The translations under genes were made by a program, and so were the position numbers. A DNA stretch of 40,033 nt, taken from positions 1-40,033 of the forward strand of contig JADGBR010000005.1 of assembly GCA_015231405.1 (NCBI GenBank). The letters are read 5' to 3'. Of the stretch, positions 10,182-29,701 are shown piece after piece. The number at the start of each line of letters is the position of its first letter. The first letter of the stretch is position 1. This stretch comes from Candidatus Omnitrophota bacterium (GTDB lineage Bacteria > Omnitrophota > Gorgyraeia > Tantalellales > Tantalellaceae). Under the pieces are notes generated by a model. The model made no database searches, had not been told where the DNA came from, and was given only the letters and a program-made list of their open reading frames with translations.

Positions 10182-11759
10182 TCACAGGCTCCATATCCCT
10201 CCAAAAAACGTATTCTCATTGGCGAGCTTTACGGCTATCTGGAGGGCGTCTAAGGCGTCATCATGCCCACCCTTCGGGTAGAACCTCATTTCTTCGATGA
10301 GTGCGCGGTGCTTCCTGAGGATCTTTATCTTTCCGCTCTTGAAAAGGGGCTGTAGCGAATCGATACGCACCCGTTTGTTGGCAGTATTGACCACTTTCTC
10401 GACTGTAAAATATCTCCGCAATTCATCCGCCCGAGCCATAAGATAATCCGCCATAACTTCCTGGAATTGGTTTGACTCAAACCCGAACATAGTATATCGC
10501 CTGAATTTGGCGTACTCCAGGATGGTATCTATTGTGCTACTTGGCCTTCTTCTGGCCACATCGACATCCAGCACATAGGCCGTTCTTGTTACATCATAAA
10601 AGGCCACTGTTATGATCGCCGAGAAATCCCCGCTATCAACTTCCTTTCCCAGGCTCGGATCGCAAGCACCAAAAATTAGTATACTGCGACCTATTTTTTC
10701 GAACAGTTCCTCCTCAGTCTTAAATTCATCCTCCCAGTAGTAAGTATCGTTAAGGTTAAAGATACAATCTTTTTCGTTCACGGGTTCGTTCTGGTATTCG
10801 CTGTTAAAGCTGTACTCTCCTTCTCTTTCTTTAATGACCATAAATTCATAGTAGCTCCTTCCCTCCGGCCACAAAAGCTGCACACCGCTTAGCATATCTA
10901 TTTTGTTGTCGTTAAAGTATTTTTTCGCCGCATCTGGGCCGCTTTCGCAATTATATTCCTCCAGAATGTGATATATCTTAGACCATTGCCCCCATAGCTC
11001 GGTCCTTTCATTAAAAGCCAAGATGGCCTTATATATACGTTGTATCCACCCCGGGGTTTGCTTAGGGTCTGTGAACCTCGCGAGAAGAGAATTGTAGTGG
11101 TGTATCGTTCCTATGTAGATAATATTTGTATTTTCGCTGCCGGCTTGAAGTACTGATTTCTTGAGCCAATCTTCTAGCCTATACGCACTCTCCGGATTGC
11201 GACAGGTCTCTGTAGTTTCGATATCGTCAAGAATGATCAATGTCGGCCTTTCCGATAGGTTGCGGCGACCTCGTATCTGTTGCCCCGTACCCAGCGCGAT
11301 TATTTTTATGCCGTTTGGAGTTATTATTTCATTTTCCGACCATCTCACCCCGCTTACGCGCTTATTGACGTCACATATTTCCGGAAAGTCTTCCGCAAGC
11401 CTGGCATTCGACTCGATCTCTCGCTTAATATCCCTCAGAAAGGCCGATGCCGTGTCAGCCGTACTTGATATTATCACTATGAACTTCTCCCGCTTATGGC
11501 AAATACAGTAGATAACATACTCGAGACTCACTATGGTACTTTTGGCAAAACCGCGTGGTGCGGCTACCGCGATATGCGCACCTCGTTTCTTCGATACATC
11601 CGACAAGATATCCGAAATTTCCCTTTGAAATATACCATCTGGTTTTTTGTGGTACTCAGAAAAATAGTATTTCCGGAAGCGCTGGAAATCCATCCCTACA
11701 CCACGCCGAAGCTTCACGATGCTACGTGCTATACCCCTCATATCAATTATCTTACCCAT
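10182..11759 (-). CDS. Phage terminase large subunit
   Basis: A 525-residue terminase. The ATPase half has Walker A APRGFAKST (67-75) and Walker B LIILDDIE (173-180). The nuclease half has FGACDPSLGK (D366), FGFESNQFQE (E427) and GGHDDALDAL near 497-506. All catalytic positions appear intact, so the protein may be functional. It follows the small terminase-like gene with an 8-base overlap. No portal, protease, capsid or tail gene follows, so this is an isolated packaging module from a tailed phage or a satellite. Confidence 0.92.
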   Translation of the reverse strand: MGKIIDMRGIARSIVKLRRGVGMDFQRFRKYYFSEYHKKPDGIFQREISDILSDVSKKRGAHIAVAAPRGFAKSTIVSLEYVIYCICHKREKFIVIISSTADTASAFLRDIKREIESNARLAEDFPEICDVNKRVSGVRWSENEIITPNGIKIIALGTGQQIRGRRNLSERPTLIILDDIETTETCRNPESAYRLEDWLKKSVLQAGSENTNIIYIGTIHHYNSLLARFTDPKQTPGWIQRIYKAILAFNERTELWGQWSKIYHILEEYNCESGPDAAKKYFNDNKIDMLSGVQLLWPEGRSYYEFMVIKEREGEYSFNSEYQNEPVNEKDCIFNLNDTYYWEDEFKTEEELFEKIGRSILIFGACDPSLGKEVDSGDFSAIITVAFYDVTRTAYVLDVDVARRRPSSTIDTILEYAKFRRYTMFGFESNQFQEVMADYLMARADELRRYFTVEKVVNTANKRVRIDSLQPLFKSGKIKILRKHRALIEEMRFYPKGGHDDALDALQIAVKLANENTFFGGIWSL

Positions 11760-12408
11760 TGTTCTCTCCTTTTTGTTGTTCGTCCCGAACCGCCAAGATA
11801 TCCTTTTCTATTTCCGCCTGCGCTATGCGCAACTTTATCTGTTTGACCTCTTGCTCAAGATCGGCGGTCATACCGTCTCCTTCCGATGCTATCCTTTCGA
11901 CTTCACATAGCTGGTTTTTGAGCTCATGTATCACCTTGTCGTCACTTACATTAAGTGTATGTGTAAAATCTCCAACGATGGTCTTTGGCTTAAGTGGAAG
12001 ATATCCAAGTGTCTGCAGCTTGTCGACGACCTCCATATCGACACGATGTGCAAAATACTCCGCCTGCGCCCTTTCTGACACACTTGTATCCCTTGAGCGC
12101 GCAAGGCGCATAAGGTGATCTCTATGGATCCGCGCATACACTACAACTTCGCCCACGGTCTTTTTGGCCAAGTCTAAGCTGGGCACAAGCCCATTCCGGT
12201 CTCGTATTTCCTCGATATCCCTCCGTATAGTTTTATCGCACTTCATAAATATCTGCGCTATAGACGGTACGCTGTACCCTTCACCCAAGAACACTTCTAT
12301 GCATTGTTGCCTTAGTTCTTTATCGATAGTGCCGGGATCGATACGGCTGTCCTTTAGATCTTGTATCAGATTTAGTAAAGGTATTTCTTTCTTATCACGA
12401 CCTGCCAT
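11752..12408 (-). CDS. Terminase small subunit-like DNA-binding protein
   Basis: A 218-residue protein. The part near residues 30-60 (CIEVFLGEGYSVPSIAQIFM then CDKTIRRDIEEIR) is a helix-turn-helix of the homeodomain-like kind. The C-terminal half is a charged coiled coil (LKNQLCEVERIA to IRNAQ-type heptads) that could allow oligomerisation. Position, between a phage methyltransferase and the large terminase with overlaps on both sides, is what suggests a small terminase role; it would recognise packaging sites. Confidence 0.65.
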   Translation of the reverse strand: MAGRDKKEIPLLNLIQDLKDSRIDPGTIDKELRQQCIEVFLGEGYSVPSIAQIFMKCDKTIRRDIEEIRDRNGLVPSLDLAKKTVGEVVVYARIHRDHLMRLARSRDTSVSERAQAEYFAHRVDMEVVDKLQTLGYLPLKPKTIVGDFTHTLNVSDDKVIHELKNQLCEVERIASEGDGMTADLEQEVKQIKLRIAQAEIEKDILAVRDEQQKGENNG

Positions 12409-13675
12409 GTTCCACCCCCTCGCCGTATTTACTTAATAGTTTTGGAGATACCCTGGCCTCGCCGGCAAACGCTATATACCTTTTAATAACGGCGTCACAG
12501 TATTTGGGATCGACCTCCATTCCAAAACAGCGCCTGCCAAGACTCTCGGCCGCTATCAAGGTCGAACCTGAACCTAAAAACAGGTCCGCTACCACATCGG
12601 CCCTTTTTGAGCTGTTCTTGATAGCCCGCTGTGCCAAAGACATCGGTTTTTGTGTGGGGTGCACGTAAGTCTTATTGGGATCGCGCCTTATTTCCCAGAG
12701 GGTGCTTTCATTCGTGGGGCCATGCCATATATGCGGGCCGTTATCTTTCTTCCAGCCGTAGAGGCAAAACTCCGTCTGGTTATTGTAGTCGGCATACGAC
12801 AGCGCGAAACTCGGTTTTGCCCATGTTATTACGGTAGCCACGTAAAACCCGAGATCGGTTAGCATCCCATGCATGGGACCGAACTGCCTGTGCCCGTTCC
12901 ACACATATATAGGAGCACCTGCGGATAAATGTGGCGTGACGTTTTCAAATACGGCTTTAAGCCATTCCTCATATTTCGTCTGGTCCATGTTATCCGAACT
13001 TATCGTTTCGCCTCTCCTCGCATGTTTAGCATTCGCTTTTCCGACAGGTCGATTGCCGGTCGTATAGTTGACGTTATACGGAGGATCGGTGTTCAATAAG
13101 TGGATCTTATGACCACTTAAAAGCTTATCCAGATCCCCATTCTTCCCGGCATCACCGCAAAGTATCCGATGTTTCCCAAGTTCGATAATATCGCCCGGTT
13201 TTGTCACAGGTTTTTCAATAGCCTCCAGAGCCGCGTCAAAGTCGAAATTGTCGTCTTCCTTTATATCCTGATACGAATCCAGAAGCTCGCTTATCTCGGG
13301 CATATCAAAACCAGTTATCCCAATATCAAAATCCGGCATACTGGCTAGGCCGTCCAACAGGTTCGCTAATTTCTCCTCGTCCCAGTCGCCGCGGATCTTA
13401 TTTAGGGCAAGGTTCAATGCTTTTTCTTTCTCTATCGGGAGATCAACTACGCTTACCTCCACATCTTTATGCCCTTCCTCTTTTAGTATCTTGAGCCTCT
13501 GATGGCCGGAAACCAAAGTCCCGGTTCTTTCATTCCATACCAATGGCTCGATATATCCGAACGTTCTAATGCTTTGTTTTAGCTTTTCGTATTCCGCATC
13601 ACCCGGGAATAGATCCAGCCTCGGATTGTATGGTGCGGGGTTGATCTCTTCCAATCTAACCTTCCTGATCTCCAT
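12395..13675 (-). CDS. ParB-like domain plus DNA adenine/cytosine methyltransferase
   Basis: A 426-residue protein. Residues 1-95 form a ParB/Srx-like domain (EINPAPYNPR, VSGHQRLKILKEEG). Residues about 165-410 form an N6/N4 DNA methyltransferase with DPPYNVNY at 197-204 and FLGSGSTLIAAE near 366-377, in the order of beta-class enzymes. Such fusions are common in phages beside terminase genes and are thought to methylate phage DNA. The start has an AAGGAGGAG box. A palindrome just upstream (13688-13704) may be an operator. It overlaps the next gene by 14 bases. Confidence 0.9.
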   Translation of the reverse strand: MEIRKVRLEEINPAPYNPRLDLFPGDAEYEKLKQSIRTFGYIEPLVWNERTGTLVSGHQRLKILKEEGHKDVEVSVVDLPIEKEKALNLALNKIRGDWDEEKLANLLDGLASMPDFDIGITGFDMPEISELLDSYQDIKEDDNFDFDAALEAIEKPVTKPGDIIELGKHRILCGDAGKNGDLDKLLSGHKIHLLNTDPPYNVNYTTGNRPVGKANAKHARRGETISSDNMDQTKYEEWLKAVFENVTPHLSAGAPIYVWNGHRQFGPMHGMLTDLGFYVATVITWAKPSFALSYADYNNQTEFCLYGWKKDNGPHIWHGPTNESTLWEIRRDPNKTYVHPTQKPMSLAQRAIKNSSKRADVVADLFLGSGSTLIAAESLGRRCFGMEVDPKYCDAVIKRYIAFAGEARVSPKLLSKYGEGVEHGRS

Positions 13676-16469: not shown

Positions 16470-17162
16470 CTATTCGATTTTATCTTTCTTTGCAATGTTA
16501 TGCCGAGCGCACATTAGTTGTATGTTTTCAGCGACCAGGGAAGATCCGCCCTTTGAATATGGGATTATGTGGTCAAAGTGTAAATTATCCGTGCTGCCAC
16601 AGGTTACACATTTACCTTTATCTCGTTTCCACACTTCCAGCTTCACTGCTGTCGGGATTAACCTATCGTGCTCCATTTCTTTTTGCTTGATTACATTCTC
16701 TTGTGATTCGTCGCAAATTTTGAGTTTGAATTTAAACACTTTTCTTGCATTGCTATTTTCTTGCCATGAATCTATCAATTTAAAGATACCGTTATCTGCC
16801 CAAATACCGGACCTGATTTTCTCATATACCCTAACAAACTCTGGATTGTGGTTCTTATTTTTGTGTGCCAGCGCTGCCTCATAAAAAAGACCATTTTGGG
16901 TCAATCCTCCACCTGGGTTATGCATTGGTTGATCAACCTTTTTGGGATCTGGTCCACCCTTCGTATTAGGAATGTCATGTCCTTCATATATCAGAACTCT
17001 GCCATTCTCTTCGATCTTATCTGCATAAGGAGCTCCCTGCCTTACACTCATAAGAATAACGCTGAACCCGCTACGCAAACGGTAATTCATCCCACGCTGA
17101 AGATTAACCCCCGCCTCTTTACACATGTCTAAATAAGATATAATATTGCCTGATTTAATCAT
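16470..17162 (-). CDS. HNH endonuclease with N-terminal SRA-like domain
   Basis: A 230-residue protein. The C-terminal HNH domain (about 185-230) has CVTCGSTDNLHFDHIIPYSK...LMCARHN, with the four zinc cysteines or histidines and the DH catalytic pair. The N-terminal part (about 10-110) contains YRLRSGFSVILMSVRQGAPY and a GRVLIYEGHD strand, which resembles the modified-base-binding SRA/YDG fold of McrA-like enzymes. It would then be a modification-dependent restriction enzyme that cuts methylated DNA. No methyltransferase is paired with it, which fits. Confidence 0.8.
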   Translation of the reverse strand: MIKSGNIISYLDMCKEAGVNLQRGMNYRLRSGFSVILMSVRQGAPYADKIEENGRVLIYEGHDIPNTKGGPDPKKVDQPMHNPGGGLTQNGLFYEAALAHKNKNHNPEFVRVYEKIRSGIWADNGIFKLIDSWQENSNARKVFKFKLKICDESQENVIKQKEMEHDRLIPTAVKLEVWKRDKGKCVTCGSTDNLHFDHIIPYSKGGSSLVAENIQLMCARHNIAKKDKIE

Positions 17163-17788: not shown

Positions 17789-20700
17789 TTATGGGCTCAA
17801 CAAGTCTTTGATTTCTACTGGGATAGTTTTCTGGATTTTAGAAATCTCGCTCTTGGCCAAAGTTGTTATGGCTCCATCATACTGAAAACATTTTGATAGA
17901 AGCAATATCATAAACATGCTAATTTCTTCGCGAGAGAAAGAATTTCTTTTCAAGAGCCGAGCCCCATCCACAAGATATTTTTTTATTGTTTCGTCGTATT
18001 CAGCATTTCTTCTAAACAAAAGGTTGCCCCACACTATATTGAGATTCAATCCAAAGGTTTGAATGTATTTAAGCTTATCATATGGTTCTGCGGGGGAAGA
18101 GAACGAAAGCTCCAGCTCCTTGTCATGTTCAGAAAAAGTCCGCATTATTTCTAAATGGATTTCCGCGAGTTCTCTTCTGGTGAAAACATAATCATAATAA
18201 ACAAACCCTAACGAATGTCCAACCTCGACCAATGCCGTATAATTCAGCCCCTTTTTACATTCTTGGTATGTATACTCAAGCAACCTGAACAAATCTTTAG
18301 CAGAAATTGTTTTCGCAGATAATTTTATCTTTCGGGAATAAAGTTCACTTATCCACCAACTCAAACATTCATCGGACAGTATTAGATTTTTAAATTCCCA
18401 TAATTCTGCTTCAATCGTTTCCAATATTTTAACTGCCCGCTGGCACCCACTTGTTTGCTGAGCCTTTGCCACAGTATCAAATATTTCAAAAAGAGAATAT
18501 GCTAAAAACCTTTTGCTTTTTAAAGTTTTGATAGAAGGCTCGATAATACTCTTTGATATTACTTCTGCGATCTCTACGTCCCTACTTGAGTTGAATAACA
18601 ATGGAATGAAATCTTTAATCACAAGTATTTTTATTCCCTCATACCTTTCATCATCCGGAGTTTTAAGCCGCAAAGCTGTTCTCAGATTTTTTTCCCAACG
18701 ATGATTTCCCCCCAAAAGTCCTTGGACCATCCCTAGAGTATAAAAGGCAGCCATCCCAGCATTAATATTTGGAACCGCTTCGCTCAACACTCTAGCATAT
18801 ACACCTCTTTCAAATTTGGGATAAACTATAGTTGATTCTTCCTGTAATGGCTTGTTTTCGATATCGTGTTTTAATCTAGTTAACTGGGCCATTGCTATTA
18901 CTACAGTTGGAGCAAATAAATGCTTATTACGTATGTAATATCTTCTTAAAATCCATTCAACAATTCTAACGAATTCTTTGTATTGTTTCGTCTGTACAAA
19001 TGTTAGAGCCCTCTCGCCTTCGCTTTTAGCGTAATACTCTTCATAGGCGGGACTTAACAACCTATAACACATGCTAGCTTCTTTGAAATATTCACGTGCC
19101 TCTACCGGGTCGCTTGAAAGTAATCCTAATCTAAAGTTTGCCCAGCCGTAAGAAAAATCATCCTTTTTAATAACGCCTTCAAGATTTTTCAGATACGCTT
19201 CCTTGGCTGCGGAATATCTTCTGCAATAATAAAATACATCCCCTTTCAATTGTGATATTTGATATTCTGTCGTTGTTCCCCATAAATTGTTTTTTCGTGC
19301 AAAATCTTCTGCTGCAGCTATTTTCTCACACGCTTCTTCACTATGATTTTCTAGAAGAAATTGGGTTTCTACCAATAGTTTTACAAGTTGGGGCAAAATG
19401 CCATCCGCTGGAAACAAAGAGAGCACTACATCCTGTGAGATATTCTCGAGCTTTGCTTTTACGGCAATATCTAAACCTACAGCAATAAGGTTTCTGCGCG
19501 TATTTTCATTTGCCAAATCGGAATATTGAAAAACCTTACCAATAAGATTCCTTGTAATCACTTGTAGTGGCAAGATTGGAACCACACCAGCAAACAATGA
19601 ATCAATGGGAAAAAATGATTTATTTGTTTCTTTCCCTAAGGCTTCGAAATCAATTTCATCCAAAAGTTTTATGCCCCCTAACGGATCTTTCTGAATAACG
19701 CAAATCATTTTTTGAATTTTGATAATTGCAGCTATTAGCGGCTGATGATCATTAAAGGGTCCAGAAACCTTAAGCCTGTCAAAATTCATTTTTTCAAGGA
19801 TTTTAAATGCTTTTTCATTATCTCCAATGCGCAAGTGGGACAGAGACAACGAGAGAAGCACCATATTGTACATAATGGCTATTTTTTCATTTTCTGGCAC
19901 ATTTATATATTCCAGAATAGGTAAACTATCTAGAATATTTTTAAGTTGCTTATTCGACATAGTGGATTTATTCGCAGACTGCAGAAGATTGATTGCCCAG
20001 AAAAAGGCTCTTTCAGGATTGTTTGAAAGAATAGCATAACAGATGCCTTGGCTAACTTGCAACGCATCCAGACTTTTACCTTCCGTCTTCAATAATTCAA
20101 TGCTTATCAAGTCATATATTTTAGAATACTTATCCTTGTCAAAATAAGCCCGGGTAACTTCCTTGTATACTGGCGCCATGCGATATCCTTGCTCTGCATC
20201 CCCTTCGATGACATTTCCCTCAAGTTTTTCAAGAATAATTTTAAAAGGTTTAACAATTGGCAATATTTTGTTTTGCATAATCACATTTATTACTTTTTCA
20301 TTTGCGCTATAAACCAAAGTTGACATAGAGAGCACAAAGTTCAACAAGTCCACATCATTCTCAATGATATCTTCGAAAAGAAAGTTTTTTAGTTCTCGAC
20401 CTAGATCTTCATCTGCGACTAATGGGGGTTTTATAAGATTTAAAAATAACTCTCGCTGCGTTCGACATTTTCGCGCCAATGCCAATGCAATTAACGGATG
20501 CCCCGCACACGTCATTTCAAGTTGTTTAAGATAAGATTCCTCTAAATAATAGTCTTGCCCAAGAATGTTTTGTGATAAGAATTCTTTTATTTCATTAATT
20601 TTCCAAGGAATAACGGCAACCTCATAATCGATTATGCTATGCAAATGTTTCAGTCCCTTATTCCTAACAAAAATTACTCCTACTTTAGTAAAAGGAAAGG

Positions 20701-21823
20701 ATGTTTTTATCTTGTTTAGCCATTGGAAGATTAAATTTTCCCCAGCTTCGACCAGCAACTCGCTGTTATCAACGATATACACTGTTTCCTTAAAACCATT
20801 AGTATCTTTCCGAATATTGGCATCCTCAATTCTTACAAATCCATTAACTATGTCTGTTACATTTTCGGGAGAAACATAGATTTTTAAAATACTGGCAACA
20901 AAATCAAGTGCGAAAATACGACTTTCCGCTTCCCCTTGAAATATATAACTACAGTCAAACCATTTTATGGTCATTCCATCAGAGAACCACTTGTGAGCGA
21001 TCCGAGAGATTAGGGCAGTCTTTCCGATTTTTGGTATACCCAAACAAACCTGAATCTTACCAAAAGGTTTTAGTAATGGATAATCCTCCGGGATGCTTCT
21101 GTTAACTGTTCCGGGAGATGGCAAATTCTTTCGTTCAAATCGTGAATTCAAGTCGACAGTTTTGCTAAAAGCATATTCTCTTGCCTTATCTAATTCGAGA
21201 AATTTTTCAAAAGATTCTTCCGCCAGAGAAAGTGCTTTAACAAGACCACAAGTATTTGTTTGCTGCAATTCAATGGCCAATTTATGCTTATTCAAATCTG
21301 TGAATCTATCTATAGCATTAAAAGTATGTGGGAGATGTTTTTTAAATAAAGAAATAAATTCAGGAATAATTTTGTCGCTCAATATTTGTTCTATGTCAAC
21401 CAACGCTTTCAGGTCGATATCAGCTGAGGTTTTGTTGCGAGCATATACTATTATGTCTGATTTAATATTCGGTAGATTTGTAGGGATTTCCCGATTCGAA
21501 CATAACACAATTTCTTGAAGATCTTTTAATTCTGCCAAACAGCTGTCAATATCCTCACAGGGCTTCCACTTAGAGAGATCTTTTGTTTTCTTCCAATAGT
21601 TCTCTTGTGTGCCACATTGCACAGCAATTTGTTTTCCATTAGTTAAAGTTTTGATTAGGTCAGGAGTGCCTTTACGAGTTTTCCCTTCGACCGTATGACC
21701 GAATCTCTCTAAGCCTTGGTATTTAGGATCTATTAGCGGAAGCAAATCCAGACAAAAATCCTGGAAAGCGCCTGCTTCCATTTCTTTTACCTCTTTTGAT
21801 AGTATAGATTTCAGATTTATCAT
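17789..21823 (-). CDS. STAND-type NTPase with N-terminal nuclease-like domain (Avs-like candidate)
   Basis: A 1344-residue protein. Residues about 15-130 look like a PD-(D/E)xK-type effector: EGKTRKGTPDLI with D55, then KQIAVQCGTQ in place of the classical ExK/QxK, a variant seen in large STAND proteins. Residues about 250-480 form a P-loop domain with Walker A GIPKIGKT (262-269) and a VYIVDN Walker B-like strand (about 348-353). The remaining 850 residues are alpha-helical, TPR-like repeats that would sense a ligand. This order (nuclease, STAND NTPase, sensor repeats) is that of antiviral STAND (Avs) proteins, which detect phage proteins and then degrade DNA. It is a single-gene unit with gaps on both sides. 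Exact subfamily is unknown. Confidence 0.75.
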   Translation of the reverse strand: MINLKSILSKEVKEMEAGAFQDFCLDLLPLIDPKYQGLERFGHTVEGKTRKGTPDLIKTLTNGKQIAVQCGTQENYWKKTKDLSKWKPCEDIDSCLAELKDLQEIVLCSNREIPTNLPNIKSDIIVYARNKTSADIDLKALVDIEQILSDKIIPEFISLFKKHLPHTFNAIDRFTDLNKHKLAIELQQTNTCGLVKALSLAEESFEKFLELDKAREYAFSKTVDLNSRFERKNLPSPGTVNRSIPEDYPLLKPFGKIQVCLGIPKIGKTALISRIAHKWFSDGMTIKWFDCSYIFQGEAESRIFALDFVASILKIYVSPENVTDIVNGFVRIEDANIRKDTNGFKETVYIVDNSELLVEAGENLIFQWLNKIKTSFPFTKVGVIFVRNKGLKHLHSIIDYEVAVIPWKINEIKEFLSQNILGQDYYLEESYLKQLEMTCAGHPLIALALARKCRTQRELFLNLIKPPLVADEDLGRELKNFLFEDIIENDVDLLNFVLSMSTLVYSANEKVINVIMQNKILPIVKPFKIILEKLEGNVIEGDAEQGYRMAPVYKEVTRAYFDKDKYSKIYDLISIELLKTEGKSLDALQVSQGICYAILSNNPERAFFWAINLLQSANKSTMSNKQLKNILDSLPILEYINVPENEKIAIMYNMVLLSLSLSHLRIGDNEKAFKILEKMNFDRLKVSGPFNDHQPLIAAIIKIQKMICVIQKDPLGGIKLLDEIDFEALGKETNKSFFPIDSLFAGVVPILPLQVITRNLIGKVFQYSDLANENTRRNLIAVGLDIAVKAKLENISQDVVLSLFPADGILPQLVKLLVETQFLLENHSEEACEKIAAAEDFARKNNLWGTTTEYQISQLKGDVFYYCRRYSAAKEAYLKNLEGVIKKDDFSYGWANFRLGLLSSDPVEAREYFKEASMCYRLLSPAYEEYYAKSEGERALTFVQTKQYKEFVRIVEWILRRYYIRNKHLFAPTVVIAMAQLTRLKHDIENKPLQEESTIVYPKFERGVYARVLSEAVPNINAGMAAFYTLGMVQGLLGGNHRWEKNLRTALRLKTPDDERYEGIKILVIKDFIPLLFNSSRDVEIAEVISKSIIEPSIKTLKSKRFLAYSLFEIFDTVAKAQQTSGCQRAVKILETIEAELWEFKNLILSDECLSWWISELYSRKIKLSAKTISAKDLFRLLEYTYQECKKGLNYTALVEVGHSLGFVYYDYVFTRRELAEIHLEIMRTFSEHDKELELSFSSPAEPYDKLKYIQTFGLNLNIVWGNLLFRRNAEYDETIKKYLVDGARLLKRNSFSREEISMFMILLLSKCFQYDGAITTLAKSEISKIQKTIPVEIKDLLSP

Positions 21824-22015: not shown

Positions 22016-23452
22016 CTATCCCATCATAACCTCTCGAAACCGATCGTTAAATAATTTATCAATTTCTTCCTCTTGCTTTTTTGCCTTATAAGATAAAATT
22101 GTAATAATGTCATCATCATCTAGCGCAACTATAAAGCCTCGATTATCCTTGGCCGTGTCTTTACATCTTTGAATAAATAACTTCTTATCCTGAAAACGCC
22201 TACATACTAAAAAACCAAATAAACCTTTATTTGGACCAAATCTACCGCTTAGCTGGTCTAATTCAGGGTTGTTTAAATCATTGGTATAATTTTTGCATTC
22301 AATCATTATAAAGTTGCATGGAATTCCATTTATAGCATATAACCTATGGAAAAATAATGCAGTATCAGCATTAGTAAAAGTAATATCAATTCGCTTTCTC
22401 CCTTCATGAATTTCTTTTTCTTTTGTTGGGTAGATTAAGTAGGGATAGAAAATAAACTCCATAATTCCGATCATCAAGTCGTGGTACTTTCCTGCCTCCG
22501 CATTGCCTGGATTGACAGCCTTGAGATTAGCTATAAGATATCGCACGAGATCTTTTAAATCCAAGTCAGTTGTTATCTCCTTATCCGAAATAACTTTTAA
22601 ACGCTTTGCCTTTGCGGCCTTGTATTTGTCTAAAATGTCGGGGTGTTTCTTTGAAAATTTATAAATATATTCTTTTGAACAGGCATATCTTTCTTTTAAG
22701 TCTTTTTTATAAACAACTTTTTTCCCTTTTTTGAGTGTATGCACCAGTGATGAGTTTGCATTGATGTGCTCCGCTTGCAAATAGTTCAATATGTATTTCC
22801 CATAATATTCTTGGTAATTACACGAAAACTCAATCCTAGCAATCGCCTTGGGCACTAAAATTATTCGTTCCCCATGATATACAGGTAACTGGAAATATTC
22901 ATCTACCCATGATTGACTCGATTGATCCCAGAAATAACCTGAAGCAACTTTAGATTTAATTACTATCCCATGCAAAATGCATTGATCTAAAGTATATTCC
23001 ATTAATTTTTTCTTAATAAGTCTAGTAGTTATGTCGCTGATTTTGTCGGGGCCAATTCCTTCTACCATAAGTTCTCAATCCGACAACTCAGTAATAAATC
23101 CTGTCTTAACAGCTGAACTTTCTTTTAATTTTTTATAAAGAAGAGCTGATTGTGTGCCACTAACGCCTTTCCCTTGTGATTTTCCGGTCGAAAACCCAAG
23201 ATGGGTCTCATTTGTCTCGTTAAGTCTTGATAACATTTTTATCGCAACCTTTTCTTCATCATTTTTTATCGCATCAATTACCAACTGAAAATATTCTACG
23301 ATAATATTATGACACTCCACTGACCATAAATCGTTCCTTTTGCTAATAGCATAGGGATCGATAAATAAAGGAATATCAGTTTTCAAGTCAATATCAACAA
23401 AATCTAATTCTGGCTGTGTTTTATTAAGTTTAAACGCTTTTGAGAATTTCAT
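22016..23452 (-). pseudogene. PD-(D/E)xK nuclease gene interrupted by an in-frame TGA
   Basis: Two open frames (23452-23075, 125 residues; 23068-22016, 350 residues) lie in the same reading frame, separated only by a TGA at 23077-23075 and two sense codons. Read through, they form one protein of about 477 residues, which agrees with how I remember the family, where ...LSD-C-EL... precedes GIGPDKISDIT. The second part has the nuclease core RKRIDITF (D228) and IMIECKNY (E257-x-K259). So a Cys codon (TGC or TGT) has probably become TGA. The ATG at 23068 could still restart translation of the nuclease half. The first half's role is unknown. Confidence 0.7.
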
Positions 23453-23685: not shown

Positions 23686-26600
23686 TTATGATAACACCTT
23701 AATAAATTCTGCAACCACCCTGAAATCATCACCGGCAACATTATTCAGGATAATATCCTTAAACTGTTTATTGTCCGGAGACAAAATAATTTGCTTATGC
23801 CTCCAGGTACCGTCCTTAAGATTCTCCTTTTCGCTCTTGTAACGTTTGATTGTATATTTTTGGCTTGTTTCAGGATCAGCTACCAGCTGAGACTCTACAA
23901 GCACAACCAAACCATTCCTTGAGCCTCCGCGTTCAAAACGAAATAAACACCAACTCCCATCTGGAATTGTCGGTTCCATTGACTTGCCAAATACCTGTGC
24001 AATAAACATATCATCCTTAAGATAGCGCTTATCAGATATCGGCTTCCAGCCTATTGTATTTGTAGTTGGCTGCTCTCCAAAAGCGGTTGCTACCGCCTGG
24101 AGATCATAAACTGGCAGATAGCCATCTGTATATCTAGCGTCATCCAAAATATCAGTTAAAAATAAATTAAATTCCAAATCATTAGCTTTTGTATGTTCGC
24201 CATGCCCCTTTAGCAGCCCAGAAATTGTCGAGCTTAATGTTATTTTGTCAGTCGGTACGATCACATATCTCCAAGGTTTGACTATTCCATATTTTCCGAT
24301 GTTTTTTGAAACTAAATCACAATATTTATCTGCCGTCCTCTTTTTTTCTTGCACGTCGAAACTATCGATTTCTGCGCTCGGCTTAACTTCAATCATTACA
24401 ATTTCCTTTTTGAACTCAACAACAAAATCGGGTTCATATCTATGTTGGGAATTACCGGCTTCATCACGCCAATAAAGCCCCTCAAATTGATTCGGCGCGG
24501 GCCGCAACCAATCTTCAACAGCCTTATCTTTATCTAAGAGATATGCCATCCTTGCCTCATCAGATGAATCGAAACGATACATAACATGGCAGGCTTTTTT
24601 AAAACCGGTATAAACTTTATCTCTAGGAAAGCGATCAATCTGAGAGTCTAAAGTAACCGGTTTTTCACCAATAACTAGCGTTATATTATATTGTTCAAGG
24701 TAAGCTTTGGGCTCTCTGATCCCGGACTCAAGGTATCCATCTGACACAAATTCTTTGTGCTTAAGTATTTGGTCATAAATTTCTTTGCCTATCTGTCGGA
24801 AATTATTCTCAATCATCATCTTTAGTGTGTTCTCATCCGATTTTGCACGTACCCTGTAAAATTCAACCGCCTGTTTTGAAAGTTTAAGCAACAGCTCCTT
24901 CTGTTCCTCATAGTCAATAAGGGGATGGTCCATCAGGGCAGAGATAATAGTATTTGCGGGACTTTGTTTTCTTCCTTCGCCAAGGTTTGATACCCGCGTA
25001 ACTTCTGTTTCCTTGCCGCCCTTCATAGTGTCACCGAAGAGATCCACTTCTTGGCCACCCTGAAGACGCTCCTCGAGAATTGAAGTTTCTGTCGCATACC
25101 TAGTCAAAAGCTTTGTATCCAGATCAAAATCTTTTATTTCCAGTTCCCCATAATGCGGTGTAAGTATAAGCCGCGGAACAGGAATGTTCCGTTGTTCCAT
25201 TGCTTGCCCAGACACTCTCCTCACTTCTTCGAGCTCTTTTTTTGCCGGTTCGCTTAATACTCCCCAGAGAGTTCCTTCGCCCAAAGGTTCCATCTCTCTT
25301 TTTTCTCCTTCGCGATGCTTGTGGTAATCCAGAAAGCTCATTCTTGAGGCTTCCTGTTTGGCTAAAATCTCAACGTACTCATTCTTTTTAGCTTCAATTG
25401 TTTCAACTTTTACATCTTCCGGGGTATCTTCTGTGATGACTGGACTAACTGCTTTTACTGCCTGCACCTCTATCTCTTTCATGATCGCAGGGCTGTTTTT
25501 AATCTTATCTTGAATACCAGCTACAAATGCCGACGGTACTTCGACAACCTCTTTAACTAATTTTGCATCGTTAATCGCGACACTCTCAATATTAGTCGGT
25601 TGAATAAGTTTAGATTTTCTTGCGCCTTCTATCACTTTTGCATAGTTGTCATGTGCAACGATCATAACACGGTCGACATTTTTATTCCCTGTCCTCTCCC
25701 CATATGGCAACCTAAGACCACGACCGATTGTTTGCTCCGTAAGAATTTCAGAAGCCGAAGAACGTATTGGAGCAATAGTATAAATATTTGCAACGTCCCA
25801 TCCCTCTTTGAGCATATTTACATGAATAACTATCTCAACAATATTATCAGGATGCTCAAGGGATATCAGTTTTTCAATTGTCTCGTCCGCTTCATCTCCC
25901 TTTGTTTTGGTATGGACCTCTATTACCTTTCCTTTATAATTTCCTCCCCTAAAATCGTCGCTGTCGATCAGAGCGCGGAGCTGTTCAGCATGAGCAATAT
26001 TCTTGGACACGACAAGCATGACAGGTTTTATTGCGGGCTTTTTATTCTCGAAAGAATATTCCTTGAGAGCAATTTTTGCGCGCTCATGAAAATAGGCGGC
26101 AAGCTGTAGCTTTCTCGCATCAGTTTCTATGGACTCATCGTCCCACTGGCTAAAATCAACGTCGCCTTCGGTCCCTACCCACGGATCTTTAACATAACCG
26201 TCACGAATGGCGTCGCCAAGATTGTAGGTATAAAAGATGTTTTTCTTGAGAACCGGCTCCGAAGACGCTTTATTTGTTTTCGCTACAACATAGGGCGTGG
26301 CCGTAAATTCAAGGCCAAATAATGGGTTAATCCGATCCAGAGATCCCATAGCAGCATCCGCATGATAATGGTGTGATTCGTCCAGCAGAACCACCAAATC
26401 ATCCAAAGTGTTGAGATAATCGAAATAAGATTCCCCCAAGGTTTCGCTGAATTTCGTGATACCTTTTTCTTGCTCTATGTCTTTTTGAGCGAATTGCTGA
26501 ACATTAAAGATATTAATTTGCACTTGGTTGCCGAATAAATCCGCGGTAGCTTGATTTTGTGCGTAGTTGTCTTTTGTGATAATCCGCGCCGTATTTATAT

Positions 26601-27036
26601 TGATTTCCTTGATGCCCCGAAATACATATTTTGGATTGCTCGATCTACTAAAATCATCGACCAATTTCCGATAAATGGTGTTGCCAGGTGCCACGATCAT
26701 AAAATGTTGAATGCTGTACACAAGATAAAGATATGCGACGAAGGCGCCCATAAGGCGGGTCTTGCCCACGCCTGTCGCAAGAGCAAATGTATATGCCGGA
26801 AAGGTTCTCTCAAAGGCTTGGAACAACTTTAACTCTGGAACCTTCTGCACATACTGTTTCGTAACCGTCTCGACATCACCCGTATTACCGCGGTTTTCCC
26901 GCTTCCGACGACTGATTACTTGCTGTCCAGCAACCGATTCCAAATACTCAGCGAAAAGCATCAAACTCTTGGCTTGAGGGGTCCGAAGACTCATTGCGTT
27001 CGTAATATATTGCAGGGCCTGATCTTTATTCATCAT
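23686..27036 (-). CDS. res: Type III-like restriction helicase-nuclease with C-terminal S24 protease domain
   Basis: A 1116-residue protein. The helicase has Walker A ATGVGKT (87-93), DESHH (219-223) and later motif VI-type QTIGRGLRLPYG. A nuclease core, YEPDFVVEF...MIEVKPS, sits at about 867-886. The last 110 residues are an S24/LexA-like domain: FGKSMEPTIPDGS with the serine near 1019 and YTIKRYKS with the lysine near 1064, so the Ser-Lys dyad looks complete. The ATG at 27036 has a GAGG box and overlaps the mod stop by 11 bases. It is the Res subunit of a type III-like R-M system whose Mod is truncated. The S24 fusion is not part of textbook Res proteins. Confidence 0.88.
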   Translation of the reverse strand: MMNKDQALQYITNAMSLRTPQAKSLMLFAEYLESVAGQQVISRRKRENRGNTGDVETVTKQYVQKVPELKLFQAFERTFPAYTFALATGVGKTRLMGAFVAYLYLVYSIQHFMIVAPGNTIYRKLVDDFSRSSNPKYVFRGIKEININTARIITKDNYAQNQATADLFGNQVQINIFNVQQFAQKDIEQEKGITKFSETLGESYFDYLNTLDDLVVLLDESHHYHADAAMGSLDRINPLFGLEFTATPYVVAKTNKASSEPVLKKNIFYTYNLGDAIRDGYVKDPWVGTEGDVDFSQWDDESIETDARKLQLAAYFHERAKIALKEYSFENKKPAIKPVMLVVSKNIAHAEQLRALIDSDDFRGGNYKGKVIEVHTKTKGDEADETIEKLISLEHPDNIVEIVIHVNMLKEGWDVANIYTIAPIRSSASEILTEQTIGRGLRLPYGERTGNKNVDRVMIVAHDNYAKVIEGARKSKLIQPTNIESVAINDAKLVKEVVEVPSAFVAGIQDKIKNSPAIMKEIEVQAVKAVSPVITEDTPEDVKVETIEAKKNEYVEILAKQEASRMSFLDYHKHREGEKREMEPLGEGTLWGVLSEPAKKELEEVRRVSGQAMEQRNIPVPRLILTPHYGELEIKDFDLDTKLLTRYATETSILEERLQGGQEVDLFGDTMKGGKETEVTRVSNLGEGRKQSPANTIISALMDHPLIDYEEQKELLLKLSKQAVEFYRVRAKSDENTLKMMIENNFRQIGKEIYDQILKHKEFVSDGYLESGIREPKAYLEQYNITLVIGEKPVTLDSQIDRFPRDKVYTGFKKACHVMYRFDSSDEARMAYLLDKDKAVEDWLRPAPNQFEGLYWRDEAGNSQHRYEPDFVVEFKKEIVMIEVKPSAEIDSFDVQEKKRTADKYCDLVSKNIGKYGIVKPWRYVIVPTDKITLSSTISGLLKGHGEHTKANDLEFNLFLTDILDDARYTDGYLPVYDLQAVATAFGEQPTTNTIGWKPISDKRYLKDDMFIAQVFGKSMEPTIPDGSWCLFRFERGGSRNGLVVLVESQLVADPETSQKYTIKRYKSEKENLKDGTWRHKQIILSPDNKQFKDIILNNVAGDDFRVVAEFIKVLS

Positions 27037-27471
27037 CTGAGACCTCATCGTCCTCGATCTCTTCAATCGCTCGTTCCTTGATCGGCAGCAGGTACTCTTT
27101 TTTACCAAACTGGCAGGCTTTGAGAATGGATTGAGGGATCTTATTAATCGTGATACGGGCGTCAACTTTTTCGCTTCCGGGCTCGTATTTTTTCGGACAA
27201 ATCAGAAGTGTCTCGTTGCGCCCAAGGTGTCGCGCTATCTGCTGAACCATAGCCACAGATAGCATTTGCGTTGTTACATAGAGATGATCAGTGCCCTGCC
27301 CCTTGCCTTGCTTCCAATAATCCTTTGAACTTGGTGTGAAAACATAACCTGTAAGTTTACACATGGCGCGAATTAGCTTGGTATCATTAAAATATACATC
27401 GATCACAGGATTGCCAAATTCATCAATTGCAATGAAACTAGGAGCTAATTCATAAAACTTGAAGCCGCCAC
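27026..27471 (-). pseudogene. mod: C-terminal remnant of type III Mod methyltransferase
   Basis: The frame open from the IS boundary at 27471 to a TAA at 27026 encodes about 147 residues. They match the extreme C-terminus of type III Mod-like methyltransferases: GGFKFYELAPSF, FTPSSKDYWKQG, TTQMLSV, LLICPKKYEPG and ITINKIPQSILKACQFGK. The catalytic part (DPPY and the AdoMet motif) is gone, replaced by the IS3 element. A GTG at 27406 could start a short remnant, but it would be inactive. Without Mod the Res protein has no cognate methylase here, which would be unsafe for a cutting enzyme or make it silent. Confidence 0.82.
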
Positions 27472-27498
27472 TGACGGTACCCCTTTTGTTACGCCAGT

Positions 27499-28387
27499 CT
27501 ACTTTAGGGAAACAGCTCCTTCCAGTGTTTGATTCAGATGGGCTAGCCCATCTGAAAATTCGAAACTTTTAGCGAACTTTTCAGGCGGTATCCCGCCAAG
27601 CGACCTGTGCGGGCGTATCGTGTTATATTCAATACGCCACTTCTCAATTATCTCTCTAGCCTCTGCCATTGTCAAAAACCAATTCATTTCCAGGCATTCA
27701 TTTCTTAGCTTGCCATTGAAGCTTTCGATAAACGCGTTTTCTATCGGCTTGCCAGGGCGAATAAAATCTATTTTTATATCACGTCTCGTTGCCCACTCGT
27801 CCAAGGCTCTGCCGCTAAACTCCGGCCCGTTATCTACAGTTATTATCTCAGGTAAGCCTCGTGTTAACGCTATTCTATCCAAAACCCTTGTTACTCGGAC
27901 TCCGTTTATCGATGTGTCCACTTCAGTGGCCAGGCATTCCCGTGTGTACTGGTCTATTATATTTAAGACCCGCATCCTCCGGCCATTCGACAATCTGTCA
28001 GACATAAAATCCATACTCCATCTATGGTTAGGCCTATTAGCCTTGGGTAATTCCAATCTTGTCGTCGCGGCGCGTCTCTTGCGCTTGCGTATCCTTAATG
28101 ATAGCCCTTCTTCCCGGTATATTCGTTCTGTTCGCTTGTGATTTATTACTAAACCTTCGCCCCTCAATATGTCGTGAAACATCGGCGATCCATTCCGGTT
28201 AAATCGTTCCGATAATTCACGCATCCGTTTACGAACGTCTTCATCGTTCTTTGCTTTTACCTTGTACCAGAAAGTCTTTCTATTCAAAGAAACTATCCCA
28301 CACGCCCGCCGCTGACTCAGCCCAAAACTGGTTATGCTAAATATTGCCGCATTCCTTTTAGCTTTGGGCGTTAGAAGTTTTTTGAGT
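27499..28387 (-). CDS. IS3-family transposase OrfB (DDE integrase core)
   Basis: The catalytic half of the transposase. The DDE triad is visible: WSMDFMSD, ITVDNGPEF and the E in PIENAFIESFNGKLRNECL. The C-terminal RIEYNTIRPHRSLGG is typical. The frame is open upstream beyond the first ATG-like codon at 28287 and reaches the orfA overlap, reading QLKKLLTPKAKRNAAIFSI, so OrfB is probably made only as an OrfAB fusion by -1 frameshifting at 28377-28383. All key residues are intact, so the element may still move. Confidence 0.88.
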
Positions 28388-28637
28388 TGATTTCCTTTAG
28401 AACCTGCATATCTAATGCTTGATCTGCCACAAGCCTCTTGAGTCTGCGGTTCTCTTCTTCAAGCTCCTTTAGCCGCTTCGCGTCGCTGATGCTCATCCCG
28501 CCATATTTTGCCTTCCAGTTATAAAATGTATTAGAGCACATCCCGTGCTTACGACATAAATCTTCGACTTTGATCCCGGCATCTGCTTCCTGCAGTATCT
28601 TAATTATCTGCTCTTCCGTAAATCTCTTGCCATTCAT
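28371..28637 (-). CDS. IS3-family transposase OrfA
   Basis: An 88-residue helix-turn-helix protein. KRFTEEQIIKILQEADAG and VEDLCRKHGMCSNTFYNWK form the DNA-binding domain, and ELEEENRRLKRLVADQAL forms the leucine-zipper-like coiled coil. It ends in TAA at 28371-28373, just after the slippery site. It binds the element's inverted repeats and gives the N-terminus of the OrfAB fusion. Confidence 0.9.
   Translation of the reverse strand: MNGKRFTEEQIIKILQEADAGIKVEDLCRKHGMCSNTFYNWKAKYGGMSISDAKRLKELEEENRRLKRLVADQALDMQVLKEINSKNF
28377..28383 (-). promoter_or_regulatory. Programmed -1 frameshift site A_AAA_AAC
   Basis: On the minus strand the orfA codons tcA AAA AAC form the perfect heptamer A_AAA_AAC, two codons before the orfA stop. 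A slip by -1 enters the orfB frame (AAA AAA CTT CTA ACG), which is open from there on. This is the classical IS3-family fusion signal. Confidence 0.75.
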
Positions 28638-28716
28638 CTTACGCCTCCTTTTTGTTATACAATTTTAAAGCTATTTTTACCAATTGCATATGGCGTAATT
28701 TTCGGGGGTACCGTCA

Positions 28717-29247
28717 CTTTTAGCCCTATTTTTCACGAACTCCTCCACAAGGTATTATCTTAGAGAATTAGAACGCCTCCTGGGCTATTCCGCAGGTAAT
28801 ATCCGAAGAGAGTTATTAAAATTTCAGGAAGACAACCTTTTTGAAACACATAAGGTCGGAAATCTGCTTTATTACTCGCTCAATCTCAAACATCCCCTAT
28901 TTGAGGAACTTAAAAGCGTTGTCTCTAAAACTGTGGGAGTCGAAGGCCTCCTGAGAGAAGCTTTATCGCACGTTAAAAAAATTCAAATAGCTTTCATTTA
29001 CGGTTCTTTTGCCGGCGGCAAAGAGAAATCTTCAAGCGATATTGATCTTATGGTTATAGGAGACCCTGACTCTCCCGGCCTTCATAGTGAAATATCTGTT
29101 TTAGAACGCAAATTAAAACGCGAGATAAATATCAGCACTTATACGACCGAAGAATATAAGGAAAAGAAAAAAGAAAAAAGCGGTTTTATATTGGACCTTT
29201 TGAGAAATCCGAAGATAATGTTAATAGGCACAGAAAATGATCTATAA
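28717..29247 (+). pseudogene. MNT nucleotidyltransferase antitoxin, N-terminus cut by the IS
   Basis: The frame runs without stop from the IS end. Residues read LLALFFTNSSTRYYLRELER then a winged helix (GYSAGNIRRELLKFQEDNLF), and then the minimal nucleotidyltransferase FIYGSFAGGKEKSSSDIDLMVIGD with the GSx9DxD core. This is the HTH-MNT family, whose members act as antitoxins by AMPylating HEPN toxins. The first few residues and the start codon are missing; no ATG, GTG or TTG occurs before the GTG at 28933. That GTG would give a 104-residue MNT without its HTH and has no ribosome site. The stop overlaps the HEPN start by 11 bases. Confidence 0.8.
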
Positions 29248-29701
29248 AAATTCAATAGAACAACTATTAAGCGAAGATCTCATCAAAAAATGTCCGATCG
29301 ACCGTAAGGCGATCGAGAATCTTTTAAAACGCTCACATATCGACTTAAAAACTGCACAAAGAAATCTTGAACAGGACGAAGATTGCGCATACAACTACGC
29401 TTATAATGCCCTCTTGCGTTCGGGTCTCGCCCTTATGTTCAGCCAGGGATATCGGCCCGATATTAAAAATAAACATGTTACTGTAATGCGTTTTTCTGAA
29501 GCTTTGCTCGGCGAAAAGTTTAAACAGCTTATGACTGAGTATGATTTTATGCGCAAGAAAAGGCACAGGTTCATCTATGAACCGGATATCCCATGCTCAA
29601 GGAAAGAAGCCGAAAACGCCATCCACACCGCCAAAGAATTCGTGAATAAGATCTCCGAGATCATCTCAGCAGAAAACCCGCAACCTAAGTTCAAGTTTTA
29701 A
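29237..29701 (+). CDS. HEPN-domain toxin (MNT partner)
   Basis: A 154-residue alpha-helical HEPN protein. Helix 2-3 has AYNYAYNALLRSGLALMFSQGYRP and the active-site helix has DFMRKKRHRFIYEP, an R-x-x-x-H type motif with the following tyrosine that MNT enzymes modify. It overlaps the nucleotidyltransferase gene, the usual toxin-antitoxin order for this pair. If the truncated MNT is inactive, the toxin would be free, so the loss of the operon's promoter to the IS may be what keeps it silent. Its last 36 codons are repeated at 1-109. Confidence 0.85.
   Translation: MIYKNSIEQLLSEDLIKKCPIDRKAIENLLKRSHIDLKTAQRNLEQDEDCAYNYAYNALLRSGLALMFSQGYRPDIKNKHVTVMRFSEALLGEKFKQLMTEYDFMRKKRHRFIYEPDIPCSRKEAENAIHTAKEFVNKISEIISAENPQPKFKF

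Follow-up and report, generated by a model that had tools for sequence, protein, structure and literature searches.

An S24/LexA-type peptidase module on a type III-like restriction enzyme of Omnitrophota and on unrelated defence enzymes

Results and Discussion

A res gene with a C-terminal S24 module

The window analysed here is a stretch of 40,033 nucleotides from the genome of a Candidatus Omnitrophota bacterium. On its minus strand it contains a res gene, preceded by the remainder of a mod gene and an insertion element. The features are the following:

23686..27036 (-): res gene, type III restriction helicase-nuclease with a C-terminal S24 module, 1116 aa (Pfam, PADLOC, motifs)
26290..26829 (-): ResIII helicase core with TGVGKT (26758-26775), DESHH (26368-26382) and TATPY (26290-26304) (Pfam)
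25711..26019 (-): Helicase_C lobe, below the Pfam cut-off, with the motif QTIGRGLR (25711-25734)
24319..24489 (-): PD-(D/E)xK nuclease domain, PDFVVEF...EVK, TnsA-like N profile (Pfam and motif)
23689..24210 (-): S24/LexA-type add-on module including the linker (AlphaFold, Foldseek, junction in the relative L258)
24085..24090 (-): predicted scissile bond Ala983-Thr984, between LQAVA and TAF, placed by homology (aligned with C-G of UmuD and A-G of LexA; a shift of +/-1 residue is possible)
23980..23982 (-): catalytic Ser1019 (FGKSMEP), from alignment and motif
23845..23847 (-): catalytic Lys1064 (TIKRY), from alignment and motif
27026..27471 (-): 3' remnant of a mod gene for a type III DNA methyltransferase, residues ~418-571 of 572
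27472..28716 (-): IS3-family element with 12-bp inverted ends, which truncates mod

The res frame (27036..23686) begins with ATG, overlapping the stop codon of the upstream mod remnant, and is uninterrupted along its length. Three Pfam families match the protein above their curated cut-offs, namely ResIII (E 5e-19), a TnsA-like PD-(D/E)xK nuclease (E 2.7e-6) and, C-terminal of the nuclease, Peptidase_S24 (E 6.6e-7). According to PADLOC, the helicase-nuclease part is a type III restriction enzyme (REase_III). The S24 module corresponds to the C-terminal 174 residues. An earlier note, made from the sequence alone, had proposed such a type III-like helicase and PD-(D/E)xK core, followed by an S24/LexA-type domain with a Ser-Lys dyad. 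The core is confirmed by Pfam, PADLOC and motifs and the terminal domain by the concordant results of Pfam, AlphaFold and Foldseek; FGKSMEPTIPDGS and TIKRYKS, the two stretches named for the dyad, are both found in the translation. The observation is larger than that of the earlier note: added here are a scissile-site motif, a truncated Mod and the recurrence of the module on many further restriction enzymes.

The first ~417 residues of Mod were sought elsewhere in the genome of the window and are absent. Their loss could reflect a real deletion, or an assembly join or error at the IS3 element. An adjacent intact Mod, as in a functional type III system, is not present in the window and is present in L258. 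Because Mod is cut by IS3 and the rest of it is nowhere else in the genome, this copy of Res may be inactive; its peptidase residues, as judged from the translation, are intact.

Several other genes in the vicinity resemble defence or mobile functions. A nucleotidyltransferase-HEPN (MNT-HEPN) pair (28933-29701) adjoins IS3, and on the other side of res there is a PDC-M36A-like gene according to PADLOC (22016-23452), broken by a single in-frame TGA (23075-23077). The 1344-aa protein encoded at 17789-21823 has no significant match in Pfam, PADLOC or PHROG; by eye, its N-terminus is PD-(D/E)xK-like and is followed by the P-loop GIPKIGKTALI, so that it is possibly a nuclease-STAND defence protein. 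Further on, an SRA-like domain (below cut-off) is fused to an HNH nuclease in a type IV restriction-like gene (16470-17162), and at 10182-13675 a terminase large subunit gene adjoins a ParB_N-DNA methylase fusion, a prophage remnant beside defence genes.

Predicted fold and peptidase signature

The AlphaFold model of the module, computed from an input alignment of 65 sequences, has a mean pLDDT of 87 and a pTM of 0.82. A search of the PDB with Foldseek returned LexA as the top match (E 3e-6), followed by lambda CI and UmuD. Thus the structure prediction of the C-terminus, which the earlier note had proposed as a check, gave an S24 fold. A PHROG repressor profile matches the module with an E-value of 3e-11, and a sequence profile picks up LexA and UmuD as well, albeit weakly; the identity to LexA is ~20%. 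Pfam, PHROG, the pTM, the LexA fold match and the invariant dyad described below together rule out a chance similarity, and by sequence and predicted fold the domain is a genuine LexA-type S24 peptidase. The winged-helix DNA-binding domain of LexA is not found at the N-terminus of the protein, where Pfam recognises Res.

To describe the active site, residues were counted in 127 aligned full-length modules. The Ser, the Lys and the Met following the Ser are invariant (127/127), which answers the question of dyad conservation raised earlier. At the position aligned with the Cys-Gly bond of UmuD and the Ala-Gly bond of LexA, P1 is Ala or Cys in all 127, and P1' is Gly in 61, Thr in 50 and Ser in 16; P3 is Ala in 115. 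The distance from P1' to the Ser is mostly 34-35 residues, and the same spacing, counted from published residue numbers, is 34 in LexA and 35 in UmuD. The module of the window has Thr at P1', an A-T variant shared with 49 other modules, while LexA and UmuD have Gly. In the omega loop, Pro is present in 122, Asn in 119 and Phe or Tyr in 124 of the 127 modules, and the Pro and the aromatic residue of this loop separate LexA endopeptidases from signal peptidases (PMC12984324). The Ser-Lys spacing of the modules is 45 residues as compared to 37 in LexA, and the loop before the Lys is longer.

In LexA-family enzymes a large P2' residue has been reported, which is a structural marker and no strict requirement. 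Here most modules have A, S, G or K at P2', and a large residue, Phe, follows at P3', both positions depending on the bond assumed to be cut; thus the scissile bond may be one residue off. Cleavage between Phe and Gly (AFG) was considered and rejected, since the F-G pair varies between modules (AFR, SFK and AFS occur), while A-x-A/C followed by G, T or S is conserved. In the AlphaFold model the predicted scissile site is at the end of a helix and not visibly inside the active site.

The module as an add-on

The Res protein of L258, whose locus has an intact Mod, is 81% identical to that of the window over 941 residues and ends where the module begins. Its stop at the junction identifies the S24 module as an add-on. 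HsdR proteins provide a similar picture: in 285 Omnitrophota genomes there are 26 strong matches to HindI-type HsdR, 11 of them with the module, and the full-length frames that include it are 1196-1241 aa long, those lacking it mostly 1032-1098 aa (some others end at contig ends). Among the apparent stand-alone S24 genes that were checked, one was frameshifted from HsdR (L139), the copy on a Halomonas plasmid, the single record in a plasmid search with the module itself, was frameshifted from an SLFN helicase (L074), and the others were at contig ends.

Partners and distribution

The fusion to Res is one of many. For 135 distinct modules, with partners assigned by Pfam scans of cluster representatives only, the partner is HsdR in 53 cases, an SLFN-g3 helicase in 23, a type III-like Res in 20, a DEAD-MZB helicase in 10, a type ISP enzyme in 9, an Eco57I-type enzyme in 2 and a PLD-helicase in 2; HsdS, AlwI, DUF3037 and an unknown protein occur once each, 11 modules are cut or frameshifted, and one is a true LexA caught by the profile. 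The search for the same fusion in other Res proteins, as had been suggested, was therefore positive, and almost all partners are restriction or defence enzymes. In the type I locus L071 the module is on HsdS, while the HsdR of that locus is without it. The fusion to DUF3037 (L250, 2998-3813) has the sole recognisable partner that is not obviously a defence enzyme.

The module was found in 40 of the 285 sampled Omnitrophota genomes, in 13 of 246 genomes of a phylum labelled Planctomycetota and in 15 of 199 of one labelled Thermoanaerobaculia; among the best 80 of 499 relatives, it is also on contigs labelled Elusimicrobia, Nitrospirae, Spirochaetales, Syntrophaceae and others. Most of the module sequences come from metagenome bins. 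A phage origin of the fusion was considered as well and is not favoured, because a search of phage genomes gave no match and a search of viral contigs only three.

Exchange, position and selection

If module and enzyme had been inherited together, their relationships should agree. This is contradicted by the tree of 119 modules, which requires 36 or more changes of the partner label, although the labels are clustered and many inner branches are weak; the starred branches alone force six changes for HsdR and five for Res. The modules closest to that of the window (73-74% identical) are on two unrelated HsdR families, while the Res of L073, ~74% identical to the window Res over the shared part, has a module with only 32% identity. 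Modules of Res and HsdR can be 82% identical, and those of an HsdR and a type ISP enzyme (L121 and L122) 90%. From these sequence comparisons we conclude that the module is passed from one partner to another whether or not these are related. In the window's genome, an SLFN-helicase-S24 gene (L065, 7036-9999) directly precedes one half of another S24 module, which is without the Ser, is 67% identical to the module of the window and is perhaps a scar of module exchange.

The dN/dS values between close modules, including those on different partners, range from 0.01 to 0.29 and are mostly near 0.1 (the lowest value has a saturated dS), which in terms of sequence evolution indicates purifying selection.

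The position of the module is mostly C-terminal. However, five HsdR proteins of the L151 type have it inserted within their N-terminal nuclease domain, and in the HsdR of L215 it is located between nuclease and motor, as it is in L212 as far as the contig shows. If the hinge of such an internal module were cut, the remainder of the protein would lose the nuclease or the first helix of it.

Host RecA and SOS genes

RecA is present in nearly all sampled hosts, namely in 37 of 39 carrier genomes of Omnitrophota and in the window's own genome. The latter also encodes UmuDC, whose site is a standard Ala-Gly; LexA was not recognised there. RecA is the common trigger of LexA-type peptidases, and it is plausible that the module answers to DNA damage via RecA. 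An HsdR-S24 protein was also found in a bin labelled Aenigmatarchaeota without a RecA match (L145), a case of contamination or of RecA independence.

A candidate built-in restriction alleviation

Our best reading, to which we give an even chance of being correct, is that the enzyme cuts itself on stimulation by RecA and restriction is thereby switched off, which would amount to a built-in form of restriction alleviation. Damage of the chromosome by the enzyme or by anything else would lead to RecA filaments on ssDNA; in response, the module would use Ser1019 and Lys1064 to cut its own hinge (Ala983-Thr984 in the window Res) and thereby sever the restriction subunit. Restriction would then be off during chromosome repair, while unmodified sites are present, similarly to a circuit breaker tripped by the damage that the enzyme can cause. 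Self-cleavage is proposed because no other activity accounts at once for a dyad and a site that never vary and for a position that does. The suggestion of the earlier note that the enzyme may be switched by autoproteolysis is well supported by the fold, the dyad, the conserved scissile site, the Pro/Asn/aromatic motif, purifying selection and the RecA of the hosts; a response to phage signals, also suggested there, found no support. The note gave no direction for the switch, and the insertions between nuclease and motor speak for inactivation.

A cleaved LexA fragment ends in VAA, and the small residues at the new C-terminus (-AVA, -AAA, -AAC) resemble this. By analogy with LexA, they may mark the enzyme body for degradation of the ClpXP type. 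This step is speculative, since the protease itself requires small residues before the cut, which therefore do not count as independent evidence for a degron.

It is a classical observation that type I restriction is suppressed when DNA has been damaged (PMC3874165). In E. coli, HsdR of EcoKI is digested by ClpXP, and the degron is unknown (PMC4231737). Since this alleviation proceeds without SOS induction (PMC11109961), a link to RecA is no rule for alleviation.

Other uses of the module have to be weighed against this reading. In LexA, UmuD and phage repressors, cleavage releases or activates downstream functions, and the module is also carried by SLFN-g3 helicases, which are no classical restriction subunits. 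Accordingly, the module could restrain the nuclease until damage or infection induces self-cleavage and frees an active or relaxed enzyme for abortive defence. We regard such an activation as unlikely: the Res and HsdR relatives without a module are intact enzymes, so that no module is needed for restraint, and a cut would split the protein wherever the module lies between nuclease and motor or within the nuclease domain. For the same two reasons, inactivation is favoured as the outcome. It is also doubtful that cleavage is triggered by something other than RecA, for example by a phage factor, failed complex assembly, pH or a partner protein. This idea could account for the 14 of 39 carrier genomes without a strong separate LexA/UmuD match, for the archaeal bin lacking RecA and for the longer loop before the Lys, but RecA is encoded by 37 of the 39 Omnitrophota carriers and, to our knowledge, all well-studied members of the LexA branch with an A/C-G site use it.

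LexA and CI dimerise through their S24 domains, and a module that is mostly C-terminal could dimerise or dock there, the active-site residues being kept for structural reasons only. We consider this non-proteolytic role rather improbable, since the dyad, the small P1 and P3 residues and the Gly, Thr or Ser at P1' are retained throughout 127 diverse modules, and since the module occupies three or more kinds of position (at the C-terminus, between two domains or within one), more in keeping with a cleavable linker than with an interface. Moreover, relatives that are no peptidases can lose the dyad, as in 186 CI with Arg at the position of the Lys (PMC12984324), while the modules described here keep it. 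Finally, the truncation of mod by IS3, which probably left the Res of the window without a partner, might suggest a one-off, functionless fusion in a decaying locus. An accident of this kind is very improbable, because the fusion recurs hundreds of times over several phyla under purifying selection.

Coming back to RecA-stimulated inactivation, it is tempting to speculate on a more general role, although we would put its chances somewhat below even: a horizontally exchanged circuit breaker, tripped by RecA and located at the end or between nuclease and motor, on type I, II, III, ISP and helicase-type defence enzymes. The enzyme would destroy itself when the host genome is damaged, and this would be a second, enzyme-encoded route of alleviation. 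How cells keep restriction enzymes off their own DNA when it is damaged or newly replicated has long been asked, and a self-cleaving module would be a direct and testable answer in the carrier lineages. It would also physically link the SOS machinery to anti-phage defence and offer a ready-made, damage-controlled switch for nucleases. At the level of sequence, a swappable module on many unrelated restriction enzymes suggests an emergency cut-out protecting the cell's own DNA. In the literature on fusions, restriction alleviation and LexA degradation (subscription papers and preprints were outside the scope), we found no description of S24/LexA fusions to restriction enzymes.

Comparison with known systems

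With type III Res proteins (PADLOC REase_III, and relatives among plasmid DEAD/DEAH helicases with 33-36% identity), the window Res has in common the helicase, the PD-(D/E)xK nuclease and the location directly after mod; the relative L258, in contrast, has no module. The SLFN-g3 (DUF2075) helicase-S24 proteins, also encoded in the window's genome, carry the same module on another enzyme class in which, unlike in the window Res, no restriction nuclease is recognised. With LexA, UmuD and phage CI (family S24) the modules share the fold, the Ser-Lys dyad, the A/C-G-like site ~35 residues before the Ser and the omega motif Pro-x-Asn-x-x-Phe/Tyr. They differ in the frequent Thr or Ser at P1', in the Ser-Lys spacing of 45 and in what they are attached to, which is a restriction enzyme here and a DNA-binding domain or short arm in the known proteins. 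As for the ClpXP-dependent alleviation of EcoKI, no S24 module is known from its HsdR and the process acts on translocating complexes without need for SOS, but the proposed outcome is alike, namely destruction of the restriction subunit when the host chromosome is at risk.
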